A DNA stretch of 64,000 nucleotides from an uncultured Prevotellaceae bacterium (lineage in GTDB: Bacteria > Bacteroidota > Bacteroidia > Bacteroidales > Bacteroidaceae), in assembly GCA_900315095.1 (NCBI GenBank), contig OMXS01000006.1:90803-154802 (forward strand), in the 5' to 3' direction. The position numbers and the translations under genes were made by a program. Under the pieces are notes generated by a model. It was not told where the DNA came from. It saw nothing but the letters and a program-made list of their open reading frames with translations, and searched no databases. This document shows positions 17,958 through 63,996 of the stretch, one piece after another; the first letter of the stretch is position 1; each line of letters begins with the position of its first letter.

Positions 17958-18093
17958 CTCTCATCGATATGCTTTGGCACTCTCACTTGTGCTTTATTGC
18001 ATGCTCACTTGTATACATCTGACACCCTCATTTATATACATTTGACACCCTCAAAAGTGCCTTCTTGCAGGCTCACTTGTGCCTCCTGACCGC
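17958..18093. repeat. Dyad-repeat array R1 (about 23-base period)
   Basis: Tandem units with the pattern CTCACTTGTATACATCTGACAC, more or less diverged, in the valS-mazG divergent gap. At least four units are readable. Same family as R2 (29695-29832), R3 (38484-38566) and R4 (51633-51775). No gene is seen in this gap. Confidence 0.75.
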
Positions 18094-29694: not shown

Positions 29695-29832
29695 TTCGCA
29701 CTCTCAAAGGTGCCTTTTGGGAGTGTCAGATGTATACAAGTGAGGTGGTCAGATGTATATAAGTGAGGTGGTCAGGAAGCACTTCTGAGGAAGCCAGAAG
29801 ATACACCTGAGAATGTCAGGAGAAACAAGTGA
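29695..29832. repeat. Dyad-repeat array R2
   Basis: Between the convergent SDR and radA genes. Read on the minus strand it has five to six units. Two in sequence are CCTCACTTATATACATCTGA and CCTCACTTGTATACATCTGA, 23 bases apart, joined by the same CCACC spacer seen in R3. A larger hairpin with CACTCTCAAAGG opposite CCTTTTGGGAGTG lies at 29698-29724 and may serve as a terminator. Confidence 0.8.
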
Positions 29833-36885: not shown

Positions 36886-37650
36886 TTAGTCAATTAGTTT
36901 TTTCACTATGCCTTCCAAGTCGTTAAGATAGAGCATGTTAGGTCCGTCTGATAGTCCCTTGTCTGGGTCGGGATGCACCTCAAAGAAATATCCTGTGGCT
37001 CCAAATGCCTTTGCCGCCAGCGCCATGTTGGGAACGAAACGGCGGTCGCCGGAGGTCTTTCCTCCTCCTGCTCCTGGACGCTGGACGCTATGAGTGCAGT
37101 CCATTATGACGGTATCCACGATGTCAAGCATGTCAGGAATGTTGCGGAAGTCAACCACCAGATTGTTATATCCGAACGTGTTGCCTCGTTCTGTCAGCCA
37201 TACTTCCTTTGCACCAGCGTCCTTTGCTTTCTCTACAGGGTAGCGCATGTCCTGACCACTCAGAAACTGTGCTTTCTTTATGTTTATTGTCTTGCCGGTC
37301 TTCGCAGCCGCCACCAGCAGGTCGGTCTGTCGGCAGAGGAAAGCAGGAATCTGCAGCACGTCGCACACTTCACCAGCAGCTTCTGCCTGATGGCTCTCGT
37401 GTATGTCGGTAAGAATGCGAAGACCGTATTTCTCCTTTATGTCTGCCAGCATCTGCAATCCCTTCTCAAGTCCCGGACCTCTGAACGAGCGGATGCTCGT
37501 ACGGTTAGCCTTGTCGAACGAAGACTTGAAAATGATGTCGGTGCCGCACACCTTATTTATATAAATGAGTTTCTGCGCCACTATGTCCAGCAGTTCTTTA
37601 GACTCAATGACACAAGGACCAGCAATGAATATTGGCTTCATGTTAAACAC
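36886..37650 (-). CDS. kdsA: 3-deoxy-8-phosphooctulonate synthase (Kdo-8-P synthase)
   Basis: 254 residues. IAGPCVIES start, KSSFDKANRTS, LTDIHE, QIPAFLCRQTDLL and DCTHSVQ are KdsA hallmarks. It joins arabinose 5-phosphate and phosphoenolpyruvate. It forms an operon with kdsD and the PLD gene. A TAATTTTG -7 box lies at 37667-37674 (minus strand), giving a short leader. Confidence 0.96.
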   Translation of the reverse strand: MFNMKPIFIAGPCVIESKELLDIVAQKLIYINKVCGTDIIFKSSFDKANRTSIRSFRGPGLEKGLQMLADIKEKYGLRILTDIHESHQAEAAGEVCDVLQIPAFLCRQTDLLVAAAKTGKTINIKKAQFLSGQDMRYPVEKAKDAGAKEVWLTERGNTFGYNNLVVDFRNIPDMLDIVDTVIMDCTHSVQRPGAGGGKTSGDRRFVPNMALAAKAFGATGYFFEVHPDPDKGLSDGPNMLYLNDLEGIVKKLID

Positions 37651-37666
37651 TTTTTATTATCACATG

Positions 37667-37674
37667 CAAAATTA
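37667..37674 (-). promoter_or_regulatory. -7 box of kdsA
   Basis: TAATTTTG on the minus strand 16 bases before the kdsA start codon; no clear -33. Confidence 0.5.
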
Positions 37675-37843
37675 GCAGAATTTGTTCAATAATCCCAATT
37701 ATTTTGCCGAAATTGCCGAAAAAGAACAAAAAAAGGGATAAATGTTTGCTCAATTCAAAATAAATATAGAACTTTGCACCCGATTTCAGGAACATATACA
37801 ATTATTATAATTACTTTACAAACTTAAAAGAAAGGGTAAAAAG

Positions 37844-38386
37844 ATGAAAAAGATTGTTATGACATTTGTTGCAGCTGTTATGGCTGTTAGTGCTTCTGCA
37901 CAGGTTTACGTTGGTGGTAACGTAGGTATCGCAAGCTACGACCCGGGTTATGAGGGAAGCAAGAGCGAGACTGTTTACAGCGTTCTCCCTGAGATTGGTT
38001 ACAGCTTCGATTCTGATTGGGCTGCCGGTGTTGCTTTCGGTTGGAGCAAGGGCGCTCTTCGTCAGAACGACCTCACATTTGACAGCGACATGACTCACAC
38101 CTTCGAGGTTAATCCTTACGTTCGTTACACAGCTATCAAGGGTAAGGTTGTTAACGTATTCGTAGATGGTGCATTTGGTTACAAGCACTACAATGACCTG
38201 GGCAACTCTTGGTCACTCGGTCTGAAGCCAGGTGTAGCAGTAAACGTTGACAAGTTCAGCTTCGTTGCACACATTGGTTTCGTTGGTTACGAGAACTTCA
38301 AGCCAGAGGGTGGCGACGCTTCTAGCGTATGGGGCGTTGACTTTGACGGCAACAACATTTCACTCGGAGTTTACTACAACTTCTAA
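37844..38386 (+). CDS. Outer-membrane beta-barrel protein (porin-like, small)
   Basis: 180 residues. Signal peptide MKKIVMTFVAAVMAVSASA. The remainder alternates amphipathic strands (VYVGGNVGIASY, AAGVAFGWSKGA, HTFEVNPYVRYTAI, VVNVFVDGAFGYKHY, SFVAHIGFVGYENF) and ends in YYNF with a terminal Phe, the BAM signal; about eight strands fit an OmpA/OmpX-like barrel. Codon use is strongly biased to GGT, GTT, GCT, AAG and AAC, unlike neighbours, which points to very high expression. It is followed by a strong terminator. Confidence 0.85.
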   Translation: MKKIVMTFVAAVMAVSASAQVYVGGNVGIASYDPGYEGSKSETVYSVLPEIGYSFDSDWAAGVAFGWSKGALRQNDLTFDSDMTHTFEVNPYVRYTAIKGKVVNVFVDGAFGYKHYNDLGNSWSLGLKPGVAVNVDKFSFVAHIGFVGYENFKPEGGDASSVWGVDFDGNNISLGVYYNF

Positions 38387-38422
38387 TTCAAATAGAAACT
38401 AATAAATTCTGAAATCAACGAT

Positions 38423-38457
38423 AAAGGGCTCGGCTATCACGCCGGGCCCTTTCTTTT
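38423..38457 (+). terminator. Strong terminator after the outer-membrane barrel gene
   Basis: Stem AAAGGGCTCGG / CCGGGCCCTTT with an ATCAC-type loop, followed by CTTTT. Confidence 0.85.
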
Positions 38458-38483
38458 GCTAATAGGTCGTGTTCTTGACTACC

Positions 38484-38566
38484 TCAGGAGACACTTCTGA
38501 CCATCTCAGAAGACACTTCTGACCACCTCAGGAAGCATTCCTGACCATCTCAGGAGATACAAGTGA
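38484..38566. repeat. Dyad-repeat array R3, exact 22-base period
   Basis: Four units start at 38484, 38506, 38528 and 38550. Each is a 17-base dyad of the form TCAGNAN-NNN-NTNCTGA, with spacers CCATC, CCACC, CCATC. Unit 2 is TCAGAAG-ACA-CTTCTGA and unit 3 is TCAGGAA-GCA-TTCCTGA, both perfect dyads; unit 1 pairs with one G-U. More distant units may extend to about 38600. Rest of the 38387-38669 gap: no gene. Confidence 0.9.
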
Positions 38567-38669
38567 CAATTCATGACATGACAAGAAGATATCTGACAAC
38601 CATAATGTCAACGATACAGTCGATGGCAGATGGACATTTCTAAATGGTAACTGTCATATAAATTGGAAT

Positions 38670-39179
38670 TTATCTTGTCAGCCTCATGTTAAGCAAATCA
38701 CACAATTCCTGCGGCTTTATGTTGAGACCATCTGCTGGCAAAGATTCCTGAACCCCAGCTAAAAGTTCATTCAACTTCCGAAAGGTGCGACCAGCGCTGC
38801 TTGCATCATTCATCTTCTGAAACTCTACTTCTTTCTTATATTTTATGCCTATCTGCTTAGATGACGACACTTTGATCAGATAGAATTCTTCCACATCTGC
38901 AAAACGGACCTCCTGTTTCTTCATTCCGCTATCCATCGAAACAGATTCGTCTGTTATGATATAATAGGCTTTGTGACTGATTCTTTCTCTCAGTATGAGG
39001 AATAAGACGAAAAGTCCACCTCCGCCAAAGAATAAGATAAAGAATAAGATGCCTGTCCATGCAATGAATGATTGTTCTCCACGCAGAAGCATTAGAATTC
39101 CCATTGCCACAAACACAAAACATGTTGCTATCAAGCCTATGTTTTTCCAAATGGAATGATATATCCTAATCTCTTCCAT
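38670..39179 (-). CDS. STM3941-like small membrane protein
   Basis: 169 residues. Two membrane segments (about 12-30 and 40-62), then a soluble part with a PH-like strand pattern (AYYIITDESVSMDSG, VRFADVEEFYLIKVSSSKQIGIKYK). This matches the STM3941 family, of unknown function. It is next to the MscK-like channel gene (same strand, 78 bases), which may be coincidence. It faces array R3 at its 3' end. Confidence 0.7.
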   Translation of the reverse strand: MEEIRIYHSIWKNIGLIATCFVFVAMGILMLLRGEQSFIAWTGILFFILFFGGGGLFVLFLILRERISHKAYYIITDESVSMDSGMKKQEVRFADVEEFYLIKVSSSKQIGIKYKKEVEFQKMNDASSAGRTFRKLNELLAGVQESLPADGLNIKPQELCDLLNMRLTR

Positions 39180-39257
39180 AAATTCCGATTTATCTGTTTC
39201 GTTAATTGTCTATAAAAGTGCAAAGGTTTCTATATTCACATGCAGAGGGCGACTTAT

Positions 39258-41612
39258 TTACTGATTATCAAGTGGCGTATTCTTTACATGTATATCGCGT
39301 TGTGGGAACGGTATCTCGATGTTGTTCTTGTTCAGGGTGTCGTAGATGCACTCCATGATGTCGCTTACAACATATATCTGCTTCACGGCATCCACCCAGC
39401 AGAGCAACTGGAAATTGACGCTGCTGTCGCCAAACTCGGTGAAGACGGCGCGCACCTTTTTCTTCTTGTCGATGTTGGGATGCTTAAGGTTGACAACAGC
39501 ATCCTCTACCACTCGGCACACTTGTTTTACGTTGGAGCCGTAGGCCACGTTGAAAGGTATCAACGACAGCACATATCCATGATTGCGCGTGAGGTTCTTG
39601 TAGTTCTTTGTGAACAACTGCGAGTTCTGGAATGCGATTACCGAGCCATCGATAGCTTCTATCATGGTGCTCGTGTAACTGATGGAGCTTACCTTGCCCT
39701 TGGTGCCGTCGCACTCTATCCAGTCGCCAATCTTTATGCGTCCCGCCATGAGCGAGATACCGTAGTAGATGTTCTCCAGGATGTCCTTCATGGCGAAACC
39801 GATACCTGTGGACAGACCTCCCGAGATTACTATCAGCCATGTGTTGCTCACCTTCATGATGGCGAGACTAATGAGCAGCCATGTTCCCCAAACTAATACC
39901 TGAAGCACGTTGCGGCCCATCACGCTTCTACTGTCTGCCGTACGCGGGTCTTTCTCTGCGAAGTGCTGACGCAGGAAGGCAAGCGAGATGCGGTTGATGT
40001 AACCGAAGAGGAACCACAGCGAGGCTACGATGATGATATTTAATATGCTTACGCTGATGGAGTCGGTATCGATGAATCGTTTGGTTATTATGCCCATCAC
40101 CACGTCGCTGAGGTTGAACACGTCGGCGGCGTAATAGATGGAGAGGATGATAGAGCCAAGTCCCATAACGGGCAGCAGTACACGATAGACAAAGCGGAAC
40201 AACCATGTCTTGCTAACGGGCTGATCGTAAACATGATGAGATTCGCTGTACTTGTGCATCCACTCACTAATGCAGGTGATGGTGAGAATGCATGTCAACT
40301 GCATTATCCACCAGATGAGCATCTGTACGCTGAGCAGCGTGTAACCCATCCACGAGCATATGACGCTAGCAATGAACACTCCAAGCGAGATGTATGTATA
40401 GGTCATGTCGCTCTTTGGAACTTTCTTGCTGTGGCGGCGAATGAGGAACCATTGCCACAGGGCGCATACAAGCAGTATAGGAGGGAAGATGAGATTCACC
40501 AGGTCGTTCGGAATGAGCACTATTCGGAACGTGATGACGATGAAGCCAATCACTATCAGCGGAGCGTAAATCTTAAAGGCGCTCTTTATTTGATTGCCGT
40601 CGACGCGCAGGAGCAGCGAGATAAGAATCACACCAAGCAGCCATGAGTATTCCACCAACAATCCGCTCGCCATGATGAGGAAGTTCTGGTTTACAGTTGC
40701 CCTAAGCACTCCCAGAATCAAAGCGAATGTGATGGTTGTTGTGGCGAGAATGATGCATGTGCGTTTCTTCAGGAATCCAGCTGAGCGGAATCTCTTTGGA
40801 AGCACATATCTAATGGCGATGATGTTCAGCGCTATGGCAAGCGTGCCGTATATTAATATAAAGAGGAAAAGGAAGGTTATAATCTTAATATCCCATTGCG
40901 AACTGACTCCTTCCAGAGGCGTGTATTTGTCGGTGACGGAGTCTGCCATCTTTGACATCTGGAATTGCATGCTCTTTATGATTGCCCAGTAGGGCTCGCC
41001 TCCGTTCTTGAAGATGTTTGTCTGTATCTCGTTGTAGCGTACGTTAGCATAGTCGTTCAGCGTTTTCAACTGTTCCTCGGCCCGCTCGTAATACTTTATG
41101 TATTCGGTCATTCGCTCCTTGGTCTCGGTGTAGTTGTTTCGTATGTTGACAGCAAGCGTTAGACATACGTCGTGATCCACCTTGGCGCTGTCGTCGAGGC
41201 GTCTGGTGGGCATCTTGCTCAGGCTTGTCACAAGACTGTCGTAGCGAGCAATCTCGATGTTCATCTTGTCTACATACTGACGGAAGGGCAGGGTGGTCTT
41301 CTTGAAGTCCTGATACTGGTCGGTTGCCTCGTGACATGCGTATGTTAGGTCGAAAACATAGTCGGGCTTCTGCGAGTAGAGCATCAGCGCGTTCTGGTTG
41401 CTTCTCGACATTGTTGAGAACAGGTTGTTCAGGATGCGCTTGTTCATCTCCTTCGAAGACTTCATATCCTCCTCCATTTCAAGGTATGTCTTCGTGAGCT
41501 CTTTACGCAATATAGATAGTGTCTTGCCCAAGTCTTCCTCCTTGAGCACAGCGTGCATCGGCAATGCCATCAGCAGCGCGAGCACCAATGTAAGCAGTTT
41601 TGCATGTTTCAT
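39258..41612 (-). CDS. Mechanosensitive ion channel of the MscS/MscK type
   Basis: 784 residues from the ATG at 41612. Signal peptide MKHAKLLTLVLALLMALPMHA, a helical periplasmic part (about 25-210), then about ten membrane segments, and the MscS core near residue 590-780: GGLSTGIGFAMKDILENIYYGISLMAGRIKIGDW and the beta domain VSSISYTSTMIEAIDGSVIAFQNS. It opens on membrane tension after osmotic downshift. The longer start (41840) is rejected because the promoter at 41621-41652 lies inside it and it would overlap the divergent kinase gene. Confidence 0.9.
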   Translation of the reverse strand: MKHAKLLTLVLALLMALPMHAVLKEEDLGKTLSILRKELTKTYLEMEEDMKSSKEMNKRILNNLFSTMSRSNQNALMLYSQKPDYVFDLTYACHEATDQYQDFKKTTLPFRQYVDKMNIEIARYDSLVTSLSKMPTRRLDDSAKVDHDVCLTLAVNIRNNYTETKERMTEYIKYYERAEEQLKTLNDYANVRYNEIQTNIFKNGGEPYWAIIKSMQFQMSKMADSVTDKYTPLEGVSSQWDIKIITFLFLFILIYGTLAIALNIIAIRYVLPKRFRSAGFLKKRTCIILATTTITFALILGVLRATVNQNFLIMASGLLVEYSWLLGVILISLLLRVDGNQIKSAFKIYAPLIVIGFIVITFRIVLIPNDLVNLIFPPILLVCALWQWFLIRRHSKKVPKSDMTYTYISLGVFIASVICSWMGYTLLSVQMLIWWIMQLTCILTITCISEWMHKYSESHHVYDQPVSKTWLFRFVYRVLLPVMGLGSIILSIYYAADVFNLSDVVMGIITKRFIDTDSISVSILNIIIVASLWFLFGYINRISLAFLRQHFAEKDPRTADSRSVMGRNVLQVLVWGTWLLISLAIMKVSNTWLIVISGGLSTGIGFAMKDILENIYYGISLMAGRIKIGDWIECDGTKGKVSSISYTSTMIEAIDGSVIAFQNSQLFTKNYKNLTRNHGYVLSLIPFNVAYGSNVKQVCRVVEDAVVNLKHPNIDKKKKVRAVFTEFGDSSVNFQLLCWVDAVKQIYVVSDIMECIYDTLNKNNIEIPFPQRDIHVKNTPLDNQ

Positions 41613-51632: not shown

Positions 51633-51775
51633 GTGTGCTTTCGCACTCCGAATGATGCCTTTTGGCATTCTCACTTGTGCTTAATGAGCACCTCACTTAT
51701 ATACATCTGACCTCCTCACTTGTATACATCTGAGCACCTCATTTGTGCCTTCTGGCAGTCTCAGGAGATACTCCT
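51633..51775. repeat. Dyad-repeat array R4
   Basis: Between hisH and hisA. Contains CCTCACTTATATACATCTGA and CCTCACTTGTATACATCTGA units like R1 and R2, plus mini hairpins GTGCTTTCGCAC and TGCCTTTTGGCA at its left end. No gene here. It sits inside the his gene run, so it is probably transcribed. Confidence 0.8.
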
Positions 51776-51810
51776 TAACTTCTAACTTCTAATTCCTCAC
51801 CTCCTAACTC

Positions 51811-61238: not shown

Positions 61239-62702
61239 ATGAAGTTAGGTTTTGACAATGACAAGTATCTCCGAATACAGTCGGAACATATTAAGGAACG
61301 CATAGCGCAATTCGGTGACAAACTTTATATGGAGTTTGGCGGGAAACTCTACGACGACTATCACGCCTCCCGTGTTCTCCCGGGGTTCCATCCAGACAGT
61401 AAGTTGCGCATGCTGATGCAGCTCAAGGATGATGCTGAAATCGTCATTGTCATTAGTGCCGAGGACATCGAGCGCAACAAGGTGCGCGGCGACTTAGGCA
61501 TCACTTACGACAAGGATGTGCTGCGCCTTAAAGAGGTGTTTACCGAGCGCGGACTTTATGTCAGTAGTGTTGTAATAACACATTTCAACGGTCAGTCAAG
61601 TGCTGTCTCTTTCCGTGAAAGACTTGAGCGTATTGGTGGAGTGAAGGTTTATTACCATTATCTTATTGAAGGTTACCCAACGAATGTTGAACTTATTGAC
61701 TCAGACGAGGGTTTCGGCAAAAACGACTATGTGGAAACCACGCGTCCGCTGGTGGTTGTTACCGCCCCTGGTCCAGGTAGTGGCAAGATGGCGGTGTGCT
61801 TATCTCAACTCTACAACGAGAACCGTCGTGGCGTGAAGGCCGGCTATGCTAAGTTCGAGACATTCCCTATATGGAACATTCCTCTGAAGCATCCCGTTAA
61901 CGTGGCGTACGAGGCAGCAACAGCCGACCTCAACGACGTGAACATGATAGACCACTTCCATTTGGAGGCATATGGAAAGACCACCGTCAACTATAATCGC
62001 GACATCGAGATATTCCCTGTTCTTAACGCTATCTTCGAGGGAATATACGGCGAGAGCCCTTATAAGTCGCCAACAGACATGGGCGTTAATATGGCGGGCT
62101 TCTGTATCAGCGATGATGAGGTGTGCTGCGAGGCGTCAAAGCAAGAGATTATACGTCGTTATTACACGGCGCTTAGCAATATGACTGATGGCAGGAACAA
62201 CGATCATGAGGTGAACAAACTGGTGCTGCTGATGAAGCAGATGAAACTCACAACAGCAGACCGTAAATGTACCGTTGCTGCATACGAGCGTAAATTGCGC
62301 TCAGGCACTCCTTCGGCTGCTATTGAACTTGCTGACGGAACATTGATTACAGCAGAGACCAGTTCTCTTCTCGGCCCTAGCGCAGCATTGCTGCTTAATG
62401 CCACGAAACATCTTGCCGGTGTTGACCACGATTTGAAACTCATACCACAGGAGATGATAGTGCCTATTCAGCGCATGAAAACCTCGATGCTTCATGGCAA
62501 CAACCCGCGACTGCATACTGATGAGGTGCTTGTGGCGCTTGCTGTGCTCAGTCAGACTGACGAGAACTGCAAGAAAGCTCTCGACACGCTGCCGCTTCTC
62601 GATGGCTGTCAGGTACATGCTACGGTAATGCTCAGCGAGGTTGACCGCAAAATCTTCAAGAAACTGGGGTGCGGTCTTACGTTCGATCCTGTGAAGAAAT
62701 AA
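61239..62702 (+). CDS. DUF1846 family protein
   Basis: 487 residues, full length for the DUF1846 family (structures are known; function is not firmly set). A P-loop-like VVVTAPGPGSGKMAV near residue 170 and HFNGQSSAVSFRERLERIG are seen, so nucleotide binding is plausible. Cytoplasmic. It is followed after 12 bases by the ZIP transporter gene. Confidence 0.88.
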   Translation: MKLGFDNDKYLRIQSEHIKERIAQFGDKLYMEFGGKLYDDYHASRVLPGFHPDSKLRMLMQLKDDAEIVIVISAEDIERNKVRGDLGITYDKDVLRLKEVFTERGLYVSSVVITHFNGQSSAVSFRERLERIGGVKVYYHYLIEGYPTNVELIDSDEGFGKNDYVETTRPLVVVTAPGPGSGKMAVCLSQLYNENRRGVKAGYAKFETFPIWNIPLKHPVNVAYEAATADLNDVNMIDHFHLEAYGKTTVNYNRDIEIFPVLNAIFEGIYGESPYKSPTDMGVNMAGFCISDDEVCCEASKQEIIRRYYTALSNMTDGRNNDHEVNKLVLLMKQMKLTTADRKCTVAAYERKLRSGTPSAAIELADGTLITAETSSLLGPSAALLLNATKHLAGVDHDLKLIPQEMIVPIQRMKTSMLHGNNPRLHTDEVLVALAVLSQTDENCKKALDTLPLLDGCQVHATVMLSEVDRKIFKKLGCGLTFDPVKK

Positions 62703-63546: not shown

Positions 63547-63776
63547 AACGTTTTCGATAAGCCGAGAGCAGAGCGATGCTTGCATCAACTATGCCGAGGC
63601 GAGAAAAGGTCGGATGAAATCCAACGTTTTCGATAAGCCGAAAGCAGAGCGATGCTTGCATCAACTATGCCGAGGCGAGAAAAGGTCGGATGAAATCCAA
63701 CGTTTTCGATAAGCCGAGAGCAGAGCGATGCTTGCATCAACTATGCCGAGGCGAGAAAAGGTCGGATGAAATCCAA
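63547..63776. repeat. 76-bp tandem repeat, three copies
   Basis: Copies start at 63548, 63624 and 63700 with ACGTTTTCGATAAGCC and end in GGATGAAATCC. They differ at one base in the part after GATAAGCCGA. The period is not a multiple of 3. The unit contains GCATCAACTATGCCGAGGCG, which I recall from Prevotella intergenic DNA. Confidence 0.9.
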
Positions 63777-63996
63777 CATTTAGATGCTGCTTATAGGCGA
63801 TGCGTTTCTTGTATTTCACCTCATCATGAAGACGGAAATCGTGACAAATAGCCTCTACAAGATGTGACAATTGGCCCTTGTTACCCCCACTTTCTGCAAC
63901 AAGATTAGCCATTTGGCCACACAACTCCTTCCAAGTGAGGTCAGGGTACTGAAATTCAGAACCACTGACATGTGCGCCAAGTATAGGAAAAAGCAT
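63661..63996 (-). CDS. ORF at the window edge, C-terminus fused to the 76-bp repeat, possibly partial
   Basis: 111 residues from the ATG at 63996, but the frame stays open to the window edge so the gene may begin further right. Residues 1-73 (WKELCGQMANLVAESGG, LSHLVEAICHDF) have protein-like composition; the last 38 are read from the 76-bp repeat. I do not recognise the family. It may be a broken gene whose end was replaced by the repeat. Confidence 0.35.
   Translation of the reverse strand: MLFPILGAHVSGSEFQYPDLTWKELCGQMANLVAESGGNKGQLSHLVEAICHDFRLHDEVKYKKRIAYKQHLNVGFHPTFSRLGIVDASIALLSAYRKRWISSDLFSPRHS

Follow-up and report, generated by a model that had tools for sequence, protein, structure and literature searches.

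The window, i.e., the whole 64,000-nucleotide stretch of DNA that was analysed, comes from the 3.24-Mb genome of an uncultured Prevotellaceae bacterium (the source genome below). A short tandem array, R3, lies between two of its genes, and the features of this locus are as follows.

37844..38386, plus strand: gene for an outer-membrane beta-barrel protein (PF13505, by Pfam), the upstream neighbour of R3
38423..38452, plus strand: intrinsic-terminator-like hairpin of 12 pairs with a T-rich tail, from a terminator scan; 3' of the upstream gene and outside array R3
38484..38566, no strand assigned: core of array R3, four 17-base units with a 22-base period (by shuffling, the window would be expected to give 0.03 matches)
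38484..38500, plus strand: unit 1, TCAGGAGACACTTCTGA, with Watson-Crick pairs at 6 of 7 arm positions plus one G-T
38501..38505, plus strand: spacer CCATC, C-rich; the polarity of the array comes from the spacers
38506..38522, plus strand: unit 2, TCAGAAGACACTTCTGA, a perfect 7-bp dyad
38523..38527, plus strand: spacer CCACC, which, as such or as its complement, is the commonest spacer in the arrays of the source genome and of Prevotella sp. UBA4330
38528..38544, plus strand: unit 3, TCAGGAAGCATTCCTGA, a perfect 7-bp dyad
38545..38549, plus strand: spacer CCATC, read from the sequence
38550..38566, plus strand: unit 4, TCAGGAGATACAAGTGA, with mixed arms (4 of 7 pairs); letter-identical in the UBA4330 orthologue
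38670..39179, minus strand: gene for a 169-amino-acid protein, the convergent neighbour of R3, with no Pfam match at E 0.001

The unit starts (38484, 38506, 38528, and 38550) and their period of 22 bases agree with the original prediction, as do the spacers CCATC, CCACC, and CCATC; the prediction counted four dyads in the array. That description suits units 2 and 3, the two perfect dyads among the four units, which do differ from each other at positions 5 and 7 in both arms as predicted, and also unit 1, where pairing is kept through the single G-T (G-U in RNA) while the other 6 of 7 pairs are Watson-Crick; it does not extend to unit 4, whose inner arms form only 4 of 7 pairs. The array is not a product of chance: the bare pattern TCA-N11-TGA-N5-TCA-N11-TGA has three matches in the window, every one in R3 as three successive unit pairs, against a mean of 0.03 and a maximum of 1 in 100 shuffles of the window.

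R3 belongs to a non-coding repeat family that is scattered over the intergenic DNA of a few Prevotella genomes. Further copies were found in the source genome and in relatives, and the window itself contains three further arrays with 22- to 23-base units that were absent from the prediction.

18005..18068, no strand assigned: family array with 23-base units first, between divergent genes
29704..29832, no strand assigned: family array between convergent genes
51671..51778, no strand assigned: family array between genes in tandem

The family unit consists of 17 or 18 bases followed by a 5-base spacer (TCA-N11/12-TGA plus 5). A two-unit frame of this kind gives 125 matches in the source genome and 0 with the same pattern read backward as the control. 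The survey pattern opens with CTCA, and some pairs are counted once on each strand, which makes these match counts and not array counts. By strict chaining, 50 arrays with 210 units were found in 864.6 kb of source DNA, made up of 464 kb chosen without regard to arrays, within which 11 of the 50 arrays fall, and a remainder taken round array matches; the reversed control gave 0. The DNA examined from UBA4330 contains 32 arrays with 147 units (reversed control, 0), and that from a further genome, G437, contains 10 arrays with 55 units (reversed control, 1). The arrays comprise 2 to 8 units by the same chaining, and start-to-start distances in the source genome are 22 bases in 61 cases, 23 in 42, 21 in 2, and 24 in 1. 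The spacers vary, including CCACC, CAACC, GCACC, CATCC, CACCC, and more. The recurrence of the TCA and TGA ends and of the 22- to 23-base frame is partly built in, as both were required by the survey; arm symmetry was not required, and R3 is among the more symmetric loci of the source genome. Repeated at a period that is not a multiple of 3, TGA and the mirror-image TCA would stop all reading frames. A six-frame stop element was nevertheless rejected, because the commonest deviating ends in the source genome are TGG on the right (20 of 31) and CCA on the left (13 of 21), and another stop appears once per side (TAA and TTA, respectively).

Other repeats were observed in the same genomes. A larger repeated element, of which about 600 to 700 bases are common to 7 of the 14 loci compared and 250 to 380 bases are shared by four more, includes a 22-base array together with a GTGATTAGG...CCTAATCAC palindrome and repeats of the GTAG type; it has copies in UBA4330 and in the source genome, at L269 (4709-5328), L255 (486-1193), and L204 (4751-5463) and also at L242, L247, L251, and L254. 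A GTGATTAG...CTAATCAC palindrome adjoins several arrays (L010, L023, and L040), and inverted repeats of the AACAAAGTTATTAACTTTGTT type adjoin others (L011, L013, and L021). The window also contains, at 63547-63781, a tandem repeat with a period of 76 bases, 3.1 copies, and 98% matches, which differs in kind from the dyad arrays.

Gene contexts were assigned with a simple longest-ORF caller and not from annotation. On this basis, the arrays are intergenic in 49 of 50 cases in the source genome, in 10 of 10 in G437, and in 28 of 32 in UBA4330, where 3 lie inside or overlap an ORF and 1 lies at an edge. The arrays of the source genome occupy 25 gaps between tandem genes, 16 between convergent genes, and 8 between divergent genes, compared with 55, 26, and 34, respectively, among background gaps of at least 150 bases. 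Array context does not differ significantly from that of other intergenic gaps in a pooled chi-square test (p 0.19) that counts orthologous arrays of the source genome and UBA4330 twice and whose background includes the gaps of the 11 arrays from the 464 kb. A preference for convergent gaps was rejected on this result together with the convergent-to-divergent ratio of 16:8 in the source genome versus 26:34 in the background (Fisher p 0.09). Polarity, as read from the spacers, is mostly consistent within arrays (mixed in 17 of 85 versus 65 expected by chance) yet indifferent to the direction of the flanking genes (24 along and 20 against; p 0.65), which favours a role at the DNA level over one at the transcript level and led to the rejection of a strand-specific terminator or 3'-UTR element. 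An intrinsic terminator is a G+C-rich stem followed by a T run and oriented with its gene; this identity was also rejected for R3, as a scan of 37600-39300 gives sites at 38423-38452 and 39006-39026, neither of them in the array.

The family is narrowly distributed. One degenerate unit pair, searched exactly in a collection of 84,980 species genomes, occurs in 7 stretches, six from Prevotella sp. UBA4330 and one from Prevotella sp. RGIG7809 (water buffalo), a count from which records close to the window's own were possibly omitted. When up to 3 mismatches are allowed, a specific unit pair is present in a single one of the 301 genomes searched in the family, the source genome, and in an order-wide survey of 393 genomes, no genome except the source genome exceeds 3 matches. 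The loose frame has at least 5 matches in 12 of 250 genomes of the genus, the source genome included, and eight of the 12 have other arms. After the 125 matches of the source genome, the numbers are 84 in G325 (UBA4330), 56 in G437, 19 in G520, 14 in G335, 8 each in G381 and G538, 6 in G452, and 5 each in G308, G341 (RGIG7809), G373, and G417, several of the genomes under such handles being incomplete; the backward control pattern gives 0 or 1 in these twelve. Quite different arms occupy the same frame in arrays or pairs of several genomes, for example TCAGAGATGGTCTCTGA (G381), TCATTTGTGGCAAATGA (G538), TCACGGATACTCCGTGA (G417), TCATCACGGCGTGATGA (G335), and TCAATATATCATATTGA (G421). The arrays of G452 and G463 are not dyadic, and the matches in G308 look mutually unrelated. 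In G329, the backward control has 19 matches versus 1 forward, suggesting another repeat family with a similar frame. A viral or plasmid origin was rejected, as viral contigs contain no exact match to one degenerate unit pair and phage and plasmid records contain none to R3.

Between sister genomes, the sites are kept and the units change. The flanks of UBA4330 arrays are mostly 84 to 93% identical to those in the source genome. The arrays of the two genomes are largely orthologous and not independent. In 12 aligned pairs, the arrays stand at the same sites with differing unit number and content, some loci being nearly unchanged and others replaced; the UBA4330 DNA was chosen for its arrays, so empty sites would not show in this comparison. 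At the R3 site of UBA4330, only unit 4, the non-dyad TCAGGAGATACAAGTGA, is kept letter for letter, and unit 3 (TCAGGTATATCACCTGA) retains six pairs, position 6 having changed from A-T to T-A. In RGIG7809, flank identity is 79 to 88% at three loci and 95 to 96% at a fourth, and three degenerate 22-base units, read by eye, lie behind the orthologous barrel gene.

This turnover, with unit number and content differing at the same sites, is what a purely mutational minisatellite would give, in which a founder palindrome of each lineage was amplified by slippage and copied by ectopic conversion and has no reader. We regard this main rival explanation as somewhat unlikely. In the source genome, inner arms are shared more between adjacent units than between units from separate arrays (0.59 versus 0.44), and this likeness of neighbours shows that units duplicate in tandem or undergo conversion. 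Within a unit, its two arms are no more alike than random arms (0.40 versus 0.37). A gene context not significantly unlike that of other intergenic gaps (chi-square p 0.19) and the existence of genomes in which entire arrays are near-identical copies also favour the minisatellite. However, neutral decay should strike ends and arms alike, and the recurrence of the outer TCA and TGA and of the 22-base frame in several genomes with differing arms counts against it, an argument weakened by the fact that the search required these ends.

The paired arm differences between units 2 and 3 had led the original prediction to propose selection on a hairpin, through compensating substitutions, or on a dimer-binding site. 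Arm pairing would be selected if the arrays were RNA or single-stranded hairpin elements, such as terminators, 3'-end protectors, or processed small RNAs, and besides the two perfect dyads of R3, the complementary arms found in several genomes and the six pairs retained by unit 3 of UBA4330 despite its A-T to T-A change agree with such elements. In the source genome, however, the arms of a unit pair no more than shuffled ones. Among distinct 17-mers, 131 of 264 inner-arm cells are paired versus 122.5 (standard deviation, 8.3) with right arms shuffled, and among 18-mers, 45 of 132 are paired versus 48.5; many copies whose arm changes do not compensate, named beforehand as telling against a selected hairpin, are therefore what the source genome contains. 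The same absence of overall covariation is seen in UBA4330 (79 of 156 versus 83.4 for 17-mers and 27 of 68 versus 26.3 for 18-mers) and in G437 (71 of 108 versus 68.6). Units were oriented by their spacers in this test, and random orientation gave the same overall picture. Single positions depart from the shuffle in both directions: position 5 by 13 is above it in the 17-mers of the source genome (31 versus 21.9; 11/1000), as is position 5 in the UBA4330 18-mers (4 versus 1.8; 27/1000), and position 6 of the 17-mers is below it in the source genome (30 versus 35.0) and UBA4330 (15 versus 18.6). Perfect dyads make up 10 of 66 distinct oriented 17-mers in the source genome and none of the distinct 18-base units of the source genome (0 of 33) or UBA4330 (0 of 17), which speaks against the hairpin, whereas those in G437 (20 of 49 exact units) speak for it. 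A weak within-unit excess was also found in G335 (31 of 56 versus 23.5; standard deviation, 4.0; 217/5000 shuffles), where units are few; G417 (16 of 24 versus 13.0; 722/5000) and G538 (16 of 28 versus 14.5) lean likewise without significance.

RNA folding gives a similar picture. The arrays fold better than dinucleotide shuffles, with plus-strand mean z values of -2.11 for the source genome, -2.69 for UBA4330, and -4.05 for G437. However, when five bases per arm are redrawn from the pool of each genome, the real arrays fold no better than the redrawn ones and slightly worse in two genomes (z of +0.62, standard error 0.15, in the source genome; +0.78, standard error 0.22, in UBA4330; and +0.29, standard error 0.54, in G437). 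Selected within-unit pairing thus fails in the source genome. With array polarity indifferent to gene direction, terminator scans giving no site in R3, and a non-dyad unit preserved in the UBA4330 orthologue of R3, hairpin elements are an improbable explanation of the family.

The remaining candidate, a REP/REPIN/BIME family moved by a hairpin-recognising REP-associated Y1 transposase (RAYT), is quite improbable: the short, palindrome-like, intergenic, many-copy, arrayed, and lineage-specific sequences do resemble REPs as described in PMC2817692 and PMC3116915, but REPIN stems show compensating changes according to the latter, and of 25 Y1_Tnp loci in 15 genomes, none is situated in a family array, flanks of about 1.5 kb being included as far as the contigs reach. 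Four single family signatures in three of these loci look like coding or chance sequence. The Y1_Tnp genes of the source genome and UBA4330 have repeats of the GTAGGGGC type instead, as an inverted pair preceding the only such gene of the source genome and on both sides of the gene in UBA4330; in addition, G520 (76% complete) and G538 (59% complete) contain arrays and no Y1_Tnp match. A second repeat family, GTAGGGGCG...CGCCC, with the classic look of a GTAG-tagged REP, forms an inverted pair upstream of the Y1_Tnp gene of the source genome (L117, 1265-1360, on contig C26, where the transposase gene lies at 61492-61794). It recurs in other intergenic regions of the source genome, UBA4330, and RGIG7809 (L039, L010, L287, and L090).

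The symmetry is seen in the arms of a genome taken together. Of 4 inner positions, arms pair with their own partners and with other arms of the same genome about equally: 1.92 versus 1.83 in the source genome, 1.88 versus 2.12 in UBA4330, 2.52 versus 2.50 in G437, and 2.18 versus 2.32 in G520, the four best sampled genomes, in which left and right half-sites mix freely. With arms of other genomes, just 1.0 to 1.3 of 4 positions pair. Because arms of the same genome pair like own partners and foreign arms pair poorly, these genomes have a pool of half-sites that is used on both sides. Between genomes, with one unit drawn from each of the 12 genomes with at least 5 matches and every listed place of these genomes taken, pairing is 2.01 versus 1.22 when shuffled (in 27/1000 draws, it does not exceed the shuffle); once four near relatives are left out, the result is weaker (1.95 versus 1.13; 59/1000), and eye-picked strings from 19 genomes give 1.79 versus 1.13 (4/400). 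In G452 and G308, the arms are not symmetric (1.00 of 4). In the source genome, the hairpin interpretation thus fails for single units, and the symmetry is a property of the pool of half-sites. Each genome supplies its left and right arms from a common pool, and from genome to genome the two sides change in step; a factor reading half-sites, as in the dimer-site proposal, would fit this.

The family is dispersed, has a fixed 22- to 23-base frame, and recurs in the same gene neighbourhoods of the sister genome with turnover of its units. The explanation that we tentatively prefer, at a little short of an even chance, is that the family is a BIME-like intergenic DNA repeat which duplicates in tandem and in which a putative protein reads, or once read, the inverted half-sites. 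Each array is a run of inverted half-sites (TCA, three variable bases, and a purine, and the mirror of these), two per 22 to 23 bases, and would act, or have acted, as double-stranded DNA, with no need for an RNA hairpin role. A trans-acting protein may recognise individual half-sites that are arranged as inverted pairs at a distance of about one helical turn, with a preference that would drift between species, and copies may spread by slippage, by ectopic conversion, and by hitch-hiking in larger elements. Several points weigh against such a reader. The shared arm pool could be left over from an amplified and scrambled founder palindrome; the source pool has at least three half-site types (CTTG, GGAG/GAAG, and GATG), which is loose for one protein; and mixing is not free everywhere, given the excess in G335, the like tendency of G417 and G538, and the position 5 excesses in the source genome and UBA4330. 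The asymmetric arms of G452 and G308 and the weaker between-genome result without the near relatives also count against it.

A more specific form of the half-site-reading protein is distinctly unlikely. A fast-evolving, genus-limited DNA-binding protein would read inverted half-sites spaced at one per helical turn across dozens of intergenic arrays; half-sites and protein would co-diverge between Prevotella species, making the arrays a new class of protein-docking array scattered over the chromosome, with a possible part in nucleoid organisation or in array movement. Where short palindromic repeats differ in both arms, selected hairpins are the usual interpretation, and dozens of copies in one genome, with relatives that have other arms, make that interpretation testable. 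If a factor reads the half-sites, the arrays provide a natural series for the co-divergence of protein and site in Prevotella; if there is no reader, they are a clear case of minisatellites that resemble palindromes, imitate compensation, and may lead structure-based annotation astray.

The original prediction knew of no named element of this form, and none was found: at the Rfam gathering score, the window contains only two tRNAs and no match at R3, and the open-licence literature yielded no description of these arrays. CRISPR arrays have near-identical repeats and unique, longer spacers and lie beside cas genes; the 5-base spacers and diverging units seen here do not fit such an array. Tandem binding arrays of dimeric DNA-binding proteins consist of inverted half-sites at about helical spacing, and repeated inverted half-sites at approximately this spacing occur here too, but at dozens of loci with no significant relation to gene context or direction and with several half-site types in one genome. 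REP/BIME sequences associated with a RAYT have a constant tetranucleotide of the GTAG or GTGG type at the 5' foot of the stem. The family resembles REP/BIME and REPIN sequences in being short palindromic intergenic repeats with many copies, regularly spaced and alternately oriented arrays, and rapid lineage-specific change, and its 210 dyad-like units in 50 arrays, most single units being imperfect, make it a high-copy intergenic palindromic repeat. It differs from REP/BIME in that the arrays have a 22- to 23-base period and variable spacers, that the stem has no constant tag at its base, and that no Y1 transposase among those examined lies in or beside an array (0 of 25 loci), and from REPINs in the lack of overall within-unit compensation in the source genome, UBA4330, and G437, with G335 as an exception. 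The GTAG- and CGTC-tagged repeats treated in PMC3733652 are likewise dispersed prokaryotic palindromic DNA repeats, and the source genome has one GTAG-tagged type beside its Y1 gene; the 22-base units, in contrast, lack such a tag as a constant terminus. The BrickBuilt MITE of Porphyromonas gingivalis is described in PMC4596501 as tandem 23-nucleotide units that vary in number and sequence among 19 sites of one strain; its units follow AGAYCATARTATCCTCTCRTRTG and lie mostly beside a leader or tail with IS5-family-like terminal repeats. The arrays described here have 2 to 8 units of another sequence, which on a comparison by reading only do not follow the AGAYCATARTATCCTCTCRTRTG consensus. Some copies lie in the larger repeated element, whose stretch of about 600 to 700 bases round the array, common to 7 of 14 loci, is at most a candidate for such a leader or tail. 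Both families are nevertheless found in Bacteroidales and share an intergenic location, tandem units of differing number and sequence, and predicted stem-loops.
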